NCBI GenBank assembly: GCA_009909005.1
Contig: JAAAOG010000074.1
Location: 1-55,041 of the forward strand
DNA from: Alphaproteobacteria bacterium
Lineage (GTDB): Bacteria; Pseudomonadota; Alphaproteobacteria; DSM-16000; Inquilinaceae
Direction: 5' to 3'
Length of the DNA: 55,041 nt
Part shown: one piece after another, positions 2,289 to 54,963 of the stretch
Layout of the letters: the number at the start of each line of letters is the position of its first letter
Numbering within the stretch: position 1 is the stretch's first letter
Made by a program: the position numbers and the translations under genes
The notes under the pieces: model-generated
Seen by the model: the letters and a program-made list of their open reading frames with translations, nothing else
The model's database searches: none
Told to the model about the DNA's origin: nothing

Positions 2289-3995
2289 TCAGTCGGTCCG
2301 CGGCCGGGCCCGTCCGGCAGTCTCGGCGATCAGGTCCAGAGTCCCCCGGACTTCAGGGTCGATCGCCGCGACCGGCACGAAGGACGCCAGAACATGGAAA
2401 TCGGTCTTTCGCATCATGTTGGGCAGGCCGAGGCCCTTGTAGAAATTCGTGAAGAGCGGCGTCAGAAAATCATCGCTGGCCTTGATATCAGGACCCCAGG
2501 GTGACGGCTTCGACAGGGTGGCGAGGGCCGACTCGGTGGTCTCGATCGCCTTTTCCATCTCCCGGCGCCAGGTCTCGGCGAAGAGATCGCCCTGTCGGCG
2601 GCCGGCGTCTTCGGCATAGGCCAGCAGCGTCTCGCGATCGCAGAGATAGTTTTCCAACTCCCGCCGCGCCCACATGGTTTGTGTCAGGACCGGGTCAAGC
2701 GGCGGCTTCAGGTCGAGCCGGTCGAATATGGCGACGCCCAGAAGGTCCGGTTTGCATTCGCGAAGACCGTAGAAGTGCTCCTGGGCCTTGCGCGGCTGAT
2801 TGCCGACATAATGCACAAAAACCTGGGCCAGATGACCCGCTGCGGGATGCTCGAGCCGGTCCGCCAGGGCGTTCAGACAGGCGAGATCCGTGGATCCCTC
2901 CAGGTACAGGACCCAGCCGCGCTCCTCGGCCAGGTAATAATGCTCGAAGCCGATATCCTTCAGCGACTTCAGGACCTGGCTGCCGCGATCGTCGATCCGG
3001 TGCGGCCGGCCGACAAAGGCGATGACGATGTCGCGGTCGGCGGCCTCGTTGAGAATCACCTCCGAATGGCTGGCGGCGATGATCTGGCTGCCGGTGGCTG
3101 CGGCGGTTTGCGTGAGCACGCGATAAATCTGGCGCTGACGCAGGATTTCCAGATGAGCGTCCGGTTCGTCCAGCAGAAGCACCGAGCCGGGATTGGCGGT
3201 CATATGCGCCAGCAGGAGAAGGGTCTGTTGCTGGCCACGGCCGCTGGAGGCAATATCCAGCCTGGTGTTGTCTCGTGTTCGAAAAGTCATGACGATCTCG
3301 CCCCGCTCGCTGACATAGGTCGGCGAGTCCAGTCTGACACCGAACAGGACCTGCATTTGGGCGACAATCTGCGCCCATTTGTCCTTGCCGTCATCCTTCT
3401 CGAAAATCTGATAACAGAGGTTCCGGAGAACTTCCGCTGTCCGCCCCTCTCCCAAAAGGACATTGATGGCGCCTTCGTCTATGCGCCTTTCATTTGCGGC
3501 CAGCCCGGACATCGGCGGCAGATAGGCGATCCGGACATCCTGCGAGGCCGGGGGGACCGCCATACGCTCACCGTTCGGGAGTTGAAGCGGTCGACAGTAA
3601 AAGGACTCTTCGTTGGCGTAGTAGAATTCCAGGCCGGATTCCCAGATGTCCTGCCCTTCCAGAGCTTCAACAATGACCTCCAGGAAAATTTTCTGCGATC
3701 CTCCGCGTCTTGAAGACTCCTGCGTTCGCAGATTCCGCCACAGGAATTTTGCAGCCGCGACAGGGATCGTAATCAGTTCCCTGCGGTTGATCGTGACACC
3801 CGGACGATTGGCGGGAACAGTACCGGTTTTCCGCTTTTCTGCCCATCTTTTGACGCCGATGTTCCAAAGTGCCAGGGCCTGAAGCGCCGAGGTCTTGCCG
3901 GAATTATTGGGACCAATCAAAACGACGCGATCGCCAAGCTCAAGTTCGATATCGTCGAAAAGTTTGAAGTTACGAATTCTTATCTTTGTAAGCAC
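2289..3995 (-). CDS. OLD-like AAA ATPase with DUF4435/TOPRIM-like C-terminus
   Basis: This is a 568-residue protein. The N-terminal half is an SMC/ABC-type ATPase: Walker A GPNNSGKT at 28-35, an SSGRGQQQT signature-like stretch, Walker B SVLLLDEPDAHLE and a switch His in AASHSE. The C-terminal half carries LEGSTDL, AIFDRLD and RRELENYL, which resembles the TOPRIM-like DUF4435 module found in OLD-family nucleases. Family knowledge suggests an ATP-regulated nuclease acting in DNA repair or phage defence; the assignment of the C-terminal domain is by eye. The start is the GTG at 3995, with GAGG eight bases upstream. It appears to be a stand-alone gene, with the end of the DUF2934 gene 97 bp upstream. 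Confidence 0.82.
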   Translation of the reverse strand: MLTKIRIRNFKLFDDIELELGDRVVLIGPNNSGKTSALQALALWNIGVKRWAEKRKTGTVPANRPGVTINRRELITIPVAAAKFLWRNLRTQESSRRGGSQKIFLEVIVEALEGQDIWESGLEFYYANEESFYCRPLQLPNGERMAVPPASQDVRIAYLPPMSGLAANERRIDEGAINVLLGEGRTAEVLRNLCYQIFEKDDGKDKWAQIVAQMQVLFGVRLDSPTYVSERGEIVMTFRTRDNTRLDIASSGRGQQQTLLLLAHMTANPGSVLLLDEPDAHLEILRQRQIYRVLTQTAAATGSQIIAASHSEVILNEAADRDIVIAFVGRPHRIDDRGSQVLKSLKDIGFEHYYLAEERGWVLYLEGSTDLACLNALADRLEHPAAGHLAQVFVHYVGNQPRKAQEHFYGLRECKPDLLGVAIFDRLDLKPPLDPVLTQTMWARRELENYLCDRETLLAYAEDAGRRQGDLFAETWRREMEKAIETTESALATLSKPSPWGPDIKASDDFLTPLFTNFYKGLGLPNMMRKTDFHVLASFVPVAAIDPEVRGTLDLIAETAGRARPRTD

Positions 3996-4092
3996 ATTCT
4001 CCGCCTCAAATTTTCAAGGTGAATCACGCAAAGGAACGACAACCCGGCTCCGAGCTTGCGCCAGTGCCGGGTTGTGCATTCCCGCCGTAAAT

Positions 4093-4683
4093 CTACTTTT
4101 TCGTCGTCTTTCTTGGTTTGGCTCCGGTCGTCGCGGTTTTGGCCTTGGTTGCCGTGCTCTTGCGTGTGGCGCCTTTTTTCGGCGGCTCTTCTTCCTTGGT
4201 CTTCGCTTGGGGGGAGGCCTGCGGCTCCGGCGCAGGCTGGGCGGCCGGGGTTTCCTTCGGCTTTTCGGCGGCCTTGGCCGGCTTGTCCTCGATGGTGTCG
4301 GCGGCTTTGGCCGCCTTGCTCTCGGCCTCAACCACCGGATCGGGCTTCGGCTTCGCTTCGGTCAGGCTGTCGCTGGCGGCCTCGGACCGCGGCGGCGGTT
4401 CGGGCTGGGGGGCGGGCTCGGGCTCCAGTTCCGGCTGGGACGGCGCCTGGGGCTCCGGCGTGGTCTCGGGGCGCAGCGCGGTCGGCGCCGGCTCGGGTTC
4501 GGCGACCGGCTGGGGCTGCGGCTGCGCGGGCGCGGGAGCCTCTTCCGCCGCCTGCCGGGCCTCGGCCTCCAGCTCTTCCATCGCCATCTGCCAGTGCGCA
4601 TCGGAGCGGCCTTCGGGACATCCTTCCCGCTGCCAGATTTCGAATGCCCGCTTGCCGATCTGGTCTTGATCGATGTCCGTCAT
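4093..4683 (-). CDS. DUF2934 domain protein with long Pro/Glu/Ala-rich tail
   Basis: This is a 196-residue protein. Residues 1-40 form a DUF2934-type helical domain (RAFEIWQREGCPEGRSDAHW is the recognisable core). They are followed by about 120 residues of low-complexity Pro, Glu, Gln and Ala, and then a strongly basic Lys/Thr tail ending KPRKTTKK. The start is the ATG at 4683, with GAGGGAG nine bases upstream; a longer reading frame to 4782 lacks such a site. No signal peptide is seen. The basic tail resembles those of nucleoid-associated or histone-like proteins and could bind DNA or an acidic surface, but that is inference. The function of DUF2934 is not known. Confidence 0.8.
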   Translation of the reverse strand: MTDIDQDQIGKRAFEIWQREGCPEGRSDAHWQMAMEELEAEARQAAEEAPAPAQPQPQPVAEPEPAPTALRPETTPEPQAPSQPELEPEPAPQPEPPPRSEAASDSLTEAKPKPDPVVEAESKAAKAADTIEDKPAKAAEKPKETPAAQPAPEPQASPQAKTKEEEPPKKGATRKSTATKAKTATTGAKPRKTTKK

Positions 4684-13602: not shown

Positions 13603-13935
13603 GGGCATATCCTCCGGGCCGATTCAGGGGAGCGGCGCGGACACCGCGGCGGCAGGCAGGGCGAAACCGGCAAGAGCCGGGGCGGCCGCCCGTCAGGGCG
13701 AAACCGCCGCGAGGGAGCTGGTTCCGCCGGTGCGAACCCGGCAAGGTCTTGAGAGCATCACAGTCGCGTGTTCAGCCTGTGAGGCCGGGGCGCCTCGGCG
13801 GCCCCGGCCTTGCTGCCCCGTATCGGCATGTGCGGCTCCGGATCGCGCGTGCCGGCAACGGTGTGGCTATGGTCGGCCGGACGCCGCCCCTCCGGTGCCA
13901 CAGCGTTGGAGCGGCGGCATCCCTGCCGCCGGGAC
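13603..13935. other. Non-coding stretch upstream of egtB
   Basis: No gene is seen here. It holds the presumed promoter and leader of egtB. A 13-base direct repeat, CAGGGCGAAACCG, occurs at 13657-13669 and 13694-13706, 37 bp apart. A short stem-loop, GCCGG-N7-CCGGC, lies at 13726-13742. A pair of palindromic dispersed-repeat cores occupies the right end and is listed separately. No riboswitch class was recognised. Confidence 0.5.
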
Positions 13936-25488: not shown

Positions 25489-25596
25489 CTGGAGGGTCGG
25501 CGTCCTCGCCGACCGTAAAAGAAAAGCTTTAAGCAGTTGGACAAATATTTCGAAAGGTAAACATAATATCTCTTTTTGATCTGCGTTTATCTGCGA
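25489..25596 (+). repeat. Dispersed repeat: GGTCGGCG-type core plus inverted CAGATRAACGCAGAT box
   Basis: GGAGGGTCGGCG-TCCT-CGCCGACC at about 25492-25515 has a perfect 8-bp stem. An A/T-rich spacer follows, then GATCTGCGTTTATCTGCG at about 25578-25595, the reverse complement of the box at 23.49 kb with one mismatch. The two elements flank the XRE/SNase-like/97-residue/XRE segment, with the box in opposite orientations. The rest of 25441-25642 holds no gene. Confidence 0.65.
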
Positions 25597-54242: not shown

Positions 54243-54608
54243 GGCCCGGTCGATCGGGGCCGCAGGCCGCGGCGGCATGCGAGCCCGCCGGTCGAGGGTC
54301 GGCATTACCGGCATGACGCACGGCCCGGGTCGCCGGCCCCCGGCCGCAGCCCTGTGACGGGCGGCGGAGAAGGCCAGCGCAAGAGAGGGCCGTCGCGTGT
54401 GCCGGATGCGCCTCTGCCGCAGGCGCACGCCGGGGCCGGCACCGGTCTCCGGCAGGACGTCCGCGCCGGCCCCTTCGAGGCCGGCTTGCACCGCCGCCGG
54501 CACAATCCGGAAATTCCCGGTAAATTCCCGGTCAACGCGCCGCGGTTCTATGAGCGGCGGATTGATGAGCCGCTGATTGATGAGCGGCCACGTCCCATGG
54601 AGTGGTAT
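54243..54608. other. Gene-free GC-rich stretch before the repeat array
   Basis: No gene is supported, and the short frames on both strands show no domain. A short direct repeat, AAATTCCCGGT, occurs at about 54511-54521 and 54522-54532. The elements GATTGATGAGC and ATTGATGAGC occur at about 54560-54582. Its end leads into the tandem repeat. Confidence 0.45.
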
Positions 54609-54945
54609 CGCCGCGGCCTCATTGAAGATATATTGCTTTTCGGAGGGTCGGCGTCCCGCCGACCTCTTTCCACCGCCAAGTATTGCCGCGGTCTCATTGA
54701 AGTGCACGATCGTATCGACGGCGGCAGGATGCCGCCGCTCCTTTCCGCGGCAAGTGTCACCGCGGCTTCATTGAAGATATATTGAGACCCGGAGGGTCGG
54801 CGTCCCGCCGACCTCTTTCCACGGCCAAGTATTGCGACGGCCTTATTGAAGTGCACGATCGTATCGACGGCGGCAGGATGCCGCCGCTCCTTTCCGCGGC
54901 AAGTATCACCGCGGCTTCATTGAAGATATATTGAGCCCCGGAGCT
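54609..54945. repeat. Tandem repeat, 149-bp period of alternating 75- and 74-bp half units
   Basis: The marker TCATTGAAG starts at 54619, 54694, 54768 and 54917, with TTATTGAAG at 54843, so half units alternate 75 and 74 bp and the full period is 149 bp. Half unit A has GAAGATATATTG then GGAGGGTCGGCGTCCCGCC (cores at about 54642-54664 and 54791-54813). Half unit B has GTGCACGATCGTATCGAC then GGCGGCAGGATGCCGCC (54720-54736 and 54869-54885). Both end in a CCTTTCC/CTTTCCAC and GCAAGT/GCCAAGT tail. Each core is a perfect hairpin. Short minus-strand frames across it are repeat translations, not genes. Confidence 0.88.
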
Positions 54946-54963
54946 CTTTAATCCCCTCATTTT

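Follow-up and report, generated by a model that had tools for sequence, protein, structure and literature searches.

In this study, we analysed a 55,041-nt stretch of alphaproteobacterial DNA (the window), which is the whole of contig C79 in a draft genome of 4.23 Mb (230 contigs, 96% complete), and asked what the tandem array close to its end is made of and how two kinds of hairpin came to alternate in it. Our analyses suggested, with a probability of about 0.6, that it is an orphan and decayed type I-G CRISPR array with two REP-bearing spacers, which was amplified as 149-bp units. Two classes of short repeats that are usually studied apart, REPs and CRISPRs, would thus be united in one tandem array.

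Layout of the array on two contigs

TRF analysis of the window returned a 149-bp period at 54605-54943 (2.3 copies, 92% matches, 0% indels), in which an array of 74-bp half units was nested. Segmentation demonstrated that the half-unit lengths alternate, being exactly 75 and 74 bp, and that the array, if read as CRISPR, has the order R-A-R-B-R-A-R-B-R, where R stands for a repeat and A and B for spacers. Four complete spacers of 39 nt, delimited by segmentation, were located on the forward strand at 54628-54666 (A1, containing REP A), 54703-54741 (B1, containing REP B), 54777-54815 (A2) and 54852-54890 (B2). Spacer A is composed of 14 nt, the tagged REP A and a further 2 nt, and spacer B of 16 nt and REP B including its tag. 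As read from the sequence, a remnant of a third A spacer (A3, 54926-54949, +) passes from the GGAG tag directly into CTCTTT, with the hairpin missing, and adjoins a probable insertion sequence (IS) end that runs to the end of the contig (54950-55041, no strand assigned), which was recognized by eye from AATCCCCTCATTTTTC. The earlier note on this DNA had described two alternating half units with hairpin cores in a 149-bp array, and TRF, segmentation and folding all confirmed this description.

Contig C134 carries a second array with six more complete half units and two partial ones, distinct in sequence from those on C79, and the spacer length was 39 nt in all 10 complete units of the two arrays. 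When the own genome was searched, the full 149-bp unit was present on these two contigs only. Copies outside the window, for which the earlier note had proposed to look, are therefore present, and the distinct units on C134 argue against an isolated assembly error. The C79 array stops about 90 bp short of the contig end, beside the probable IS end, while C134 starts about 120 bp ahead of its array, which is adjoined by a similar inverted end. In view of these similar inverted ends, C79 and C134 might be linked through a single IS that inserted there, but the overlap of the flanks is longer than a short duplication.

Other repeats were also observed around the arrays. A separate 15-bp tandem repeat (2.6 copies, TRF) lies just ahead of the C79 array at 54550-54588 of the window, and a segment of about 250 bp before this array (54247-54498) shows 78% identity to one located after the C134 array (L009:735-985).

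REP cores and RAYT transposases

The core scan and folding identified REP A at 54642-54664 (+), comprising the GGAG tag and the GGTCGGCG/CGCCGACC hairpin, and REP B at 54719-54741 (-), comprising the GGCGGCA/TGCCGCC hairpin and CTCC, which reads GGAG on the reverse strand. Second copies were found by the core scan at 54791-54813 (A, +) and 54868-54890 (B, -). Both cores fold as an 8-bp stem and a 3-nt loop with a 4-nt unpaired tag, GGAG standing ahead of hairpin A and CTCC behind hairpin B. Two perfect copies of each core exist in the window; at up to two mismatches, four matches of A and three of B were counted, compared with 0.26 and 0.19 expected from shuffles. Tagged perfect hairpins occur six times in the window, against a mean of 0.3 (maximum 1) in 20 base shuffles. 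Variant tagged REPs are found elsewhere in the window: one tagged pair lies at about 13871-13931, and 25491-25514 is occupied by a variant whose loop is 4 nt long. The earlier statement that the same cores recur elsewhere in the window is right for these variants but not for the perfect cores.

Genome-wide, a search for the tagged core A that allowed up to two mismatches gave 72 places (0 for the reversed control), and the pattern of an adjacent A-B pair was detected 77 times; the pair pattern was absent from the 60 other genomes searched, so that the own genome alone (1 of 61) contains it. At C171, C142, C57, C18, C85 and C35, A-B pairs are tandemly amplified together with a linker at periods of about 61-92 bp, and the gap between A and B within these pairs is only 1-3 nt. 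The order and orientation of A and B in the array match those of the ordinary genomic pairs. With tetranucleotide-tagged palindromes in inverted pairs and a high copy number, cores A and B are tagged REPs that occur throughout the genome in BIME-type pairs and tandem arrays, and these counts bear out the suggestion that the hairpins are of the REP type with many copies. The element had also been thought mobile or actively spreading, which agrees with the genome-wide dispersal of the REP cores but not with the 149-bp unit. As the full unit is confined to C79 and C134, spreading is not shown for the array as a unit, and the data give no support to a mobile 149-bp element that spreads in general.

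Two proteins of the genome passed the cut-off of the model for REP-associated tyrosine transposases (RAYTs), one encoded on C128 (197 bits) and the other on C190 (89 bits), and the search for an associated RAYT that had been proposed was thereby successful. The C190 protein matched NF047646 with 89.3 bits (cut-off 80) over profile positions 25-145 of 146. As read by eye, tagged hairpins lie on both sides of its gene, so that a RAYT flanked by REPs is present; the sequences of these hairpins are closely related to those of the A and B cores without being identical. The RAYT gene on C128 (L044, around 3503-4544) is flanked by another repeat family, which would translate as GGERSEPQ / GELCEPQL. 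A third Y1 transposase, on C22, passed the IS200/IS605 model, gave no match to the RAYT model and was not accepted as a RAYT.

The linker and the state of the probable CRISPR array

The linker between the cores is 35-36 bp long and ends in ATTGAAG; within it lies an inverted repeat, which reads CCGCGG...CCGCGG where the copies are better. Half units A and B are alike because they share this I-G-type element between their cores, a source of the half-unit homology that the earlier note overlooked. The linker pattern matches at least 118 stretches of other genomes. Among the matches listed are Planctomycetota, Gamma-, Beta- and Alphaproteobacteria, Chloroflexi, Acidobacteria and others; 84 of these 118 stretches show at least two in-period spacings, and the carrier arrays have median periods of 69.5-77 bp, up to 94 repeats and, taken together, 1801 unique spacers. 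Cas1 was found in 27 of 30 chosen carrier genomes, mostly in a frame of 560-770 codons. In the two carrier genomes that were annotated, the array is adjoined by Cas3g, Cas7g, Cas56g and a Cas4-Cas1 fusion in genome G406, and by Cas3g, Cas8g, Cas56g and a Cas4-Cas1 fusion in genome G411, and these gene sets are the type I-G set.

From other genomes, 66 consensus repeats were combined into an HMM, with which the window and 25 stretches of the own genome were searched; since the own genome did not contribute to the model, its match to the I-G family is not circular. Of the 12 repeats in the C79 and C134 arrays, the model recovered 8, and a single shuffled version of this DNA gave no hit. The best E-values were 1.4e-7 on C134 and 1.6e-5 on C79, the latter at 54606-54627 in R0 (54604-54627, +), a type I-G-like CRISPR repeat of which only the 3' part appears to be left, the 5' part being lost. 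Six further repeats matched weakly (E = 0.0019-0.013), including R1 (36 nt, 54667-54702, +; E = 0.0077, at 54682-54702 only), R2 (35 nt, 54742-54776, +; E = 0.0042, and a match to the family pattern at 3 mismatches with 0 expected from 100 shuffles) and R4 (35 nt, 54891-54925, +; E = 0.0019, and a family pattern match). R3 (36 nt, 54816-54851, +) was missed by the model and is placed by its array position and its likeness to R1; all four missed repeats come after spacer A. The complete array repeats are without the terminal C of the family consensus.

Three I-G-type repeats without REPs and at irregular spacing were also observed on contig C155 (L021:2205-2435), two of which are better preserved than the array repeats; they matched the HMM with E-values of 3.9e-9, 1.4e-7 and 0.024. 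The gene pair downstream of them is one that we take to be HicA/HicB-like. At up to two mismatches, the 32-base pattern of the linker was found in the own genome only (1 of 17 family genomes), at C79, C134 and C155; with no mismatches, it was again restricted to the own genome among 385 class genomes.

By the measure applied to the other genomes (period minus 36), the spacers of the array are 39 and 38 nt long, as are 143 and 276, respectively, of the 1801 family spacers, and 1797 of the 1801 measure 32-43 nt in a survey that kept periods of 60-85 bp only. The family sequence of the repeat and a regular 75/74-bp period with the spacer length of the family suggest that the hairpins are separated by degenerate type I-G CRISPR repeats of 35-36 bp.

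Neither near-identical repeats with diverse spacers nor the cas genes of the subtype were found: the repeats are diverged, there are two spacer types only, and the searches for TIGR02165 and Cas4-Cas1 were negative in the own genome. Specifically, no I-G Cas1 (Cas4-Cas1) or Cas5/6 was detected, TIGR02165 (csb2) being absent there and present in four of four I-G control genomes, although a missed cas locus is possible in a genome that is 96% complete and split into 230 contigs. The sole Cas1 found is an RT-Cas1 fusion beside another repeat. This fusion (RVT_1 + Cas1; contig C63, L041:955-2970, -) adjoins a CRISPR array of the repeat GTTCCACCTGCCGCGC...GATGAAAC.

The repeats of the array diverge by 0.10-0.11 per site, compared with 0-0.0012 in four intact I-G arrays, a range that is a lower bound as it counts only repeats within three substitutions of the pattern. 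In the REP cores, divergence is 0 for B and 0.035 for A, both changes falling in one copy, and variable sites are rarer in the cores (2 of 46) than in the rest of the unit (23 of 103; Fisher p=0.008). A living CRISPR array shows the reverse pattern, with conserved repeats and spacers that differ from one another. The copies had earlier been regarded as recent or under conversion, which fits the nearly invariant REP cores but does not hold for the CRISPR repeats, which are about 10% apart between copies. With its REP cores conserved and its CRISPR repeats drifting, the array most likely acts at present as a REP array rather than as an immune memory. The lower divergence of the cores also fits a later arrival or conversion.

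Possible entry of the REPs and comparison with known systems

By the most likely route, a former I-G adaptation module would have taken up two prespacers overlapping REP palindromes, which could be prone to hairpin cleavage and breakage and in this way serve as a prespacer source. The I-G cas genes would have been lost afterwards, perhaps through the cost of self-directed spacers, and the repeat-A-repeat-B block would then have been tandemly amplified as a 149-bp unit, like other REP pairs and linkers in this genome. As described for type I-E in E. coli, SbcCD and RecBCD are redundant in primed self-acquisition, and SbcCD cleaves palindromic hairpins (PMC6896009); by analogy, palindromes are plausible sources of prespacers. 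Random self-sampling was rejected: the chance of a whole core in a random 39-nt window would be about 1 in 1000 if about 200 cores are assumed (an estimate; 72 places and 77 pairs were counted), so that two REP-bearing spacers out of two would hardly be due to chance. A foreign origin of the spacers was also rejected, as plasmids and phages gave no match and viral contigs none to the exact patterns. In the own genome, with 40 of 83 first-look candidates scored, a full 39-nt protospacer was not seen, which counts against capture; exact spacer matches outside C79 and C134 were no longer than 28 nt, and none of the matches listed spans a whole spacer.

Whether I-G arrays regularly capture sequence of their own genome was considered separately, and the one array tested gave no support for this: compared with its own genome (G414), array L099 gave the array itself, a second array-like place (71%, about 2 kb) and only one 25-nt match besides. 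Perfect hairpins (arm 7, loop 3-8) were present in 43 of the 1801 I-G spacers, compared with 16.5 expected (maximum of 20 base shuffles, 25), and a bias of I-G spacers towards palindromes is possible.

Capture as the route by which the REPs entered the array is unproven, and its main rival is replacement within an array that was already orphan, in which REPs would have moved in through a RAYT or recombination, replaced parts of two spacers and been amplified with the block. Such a course, which we consider rather unlikely, would agree with REPs at 70 or more places in the genome, with RAYT genes of which one stands between tagged hairpins, with cores less diverged than their surroundings, with an A/B order and orientation as in ordinary pairs and with the full protospacer not having been seen. 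However, simple insertion of a REP of 19-23 nt into a typical 36-nt spacer would give at least 55 nt, whereas 39 nt was observed in 10 of 10 units, and an exact replacement that keeps the length, twice, is a special demand. Spacers of 55 nt or more could not have shown up among the family spacers, since the survey kept only periods of 60-85 bp. The spacer length favours an entry of the REPs as components of spacers.

It is improbable that the array is a non-CRISPR BIME with three hairpins, the linker of which resembles I-G repeats by convergence. The HMM matches the linkers although it was built without the own genome, two of the three C155 copies match it strongly, and both period and spacer length fit the I-G family; these findings weigh against the four of 12 linkers missed by the HMM, the complete copies without the terminal C, the absence of diverse spacers and the finding of the linker (up to two mismatches) on C79, C134 and C155 with none in the 16 other family genomes, all of which speak for such a BIME. 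An assembly artefact, with a repeat collapsed or chimeric at a contig end, might be suspected from the closeness of both arrays to contig ends, but it is very improbable given the point changes between units and the consistent A/B order on two contigs.

If the REPs were captured as spacers, palindromes would be natural hot spots at which CRISPR systems acquire spacers from their own genome, and might be a reason why cas genes are lost; if they replaced spacer parts, REPs would be able to invade CRISPR arrays, and either course bears on the relation of REP-like repeats and CRISPRs. It is conceivable, but doubtful, that CRISPR took up host REPs as spacers for immunity against an intragenomic element, and that after cas loss the REP machinery multiplied the repeat units Cas-free. 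Immunity of this kind with a later takeover by REPs would, if true, physically connect REP/REPIN elements with CRISPR arrays. In the open-access literature, to which our search was directed, we found no paper that describes REPs in the role of CRISPR spacers.

With the REP, BIME and REPIN elements and their RAYTs, as these are described, the system shares tagged inverted palindrome pairs, many copies and a RAYT between hairpins (PMC2817692, PMC3116915), as well as tandem arrays that include flanking sequence (PMC3116915). Alternating GI-GIII tandem arrays with fixed distances of 112 and 72 bp are described in P. fluorescens SBW25 (PMC3116915). The present system differs from the known elements in its GGAG tag, a word not found in a survey of GTAG/CGTC tags (PMC3733652), and in a linker between the REPs that is probably an I-G CRISPR repeat. 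The repeat family, the 74-75 bp period and the spacer length are shared with type I-G, which belongs to the Cas4-Cas1 fusion systems (PMC10504553), while the array here stands apart in that I-G cas genes were not found, only two spacer types occur, the repeats are decayed and the spacers contain REPs of its own genome. Without companion cas genes and diverse spacers, it also corresponds to orphan or 'false' CRISPRs, the latter being defined in this way (PMC5294841), but it differs from them in that its repeat appears to come from a true cas-linked family. Finally, the possibility that CRISPRs derive from REPIN-like elements was raised by Bertels and Rainey in 2011 (PMC3116915), and the link considered here would run in the opposite direction.
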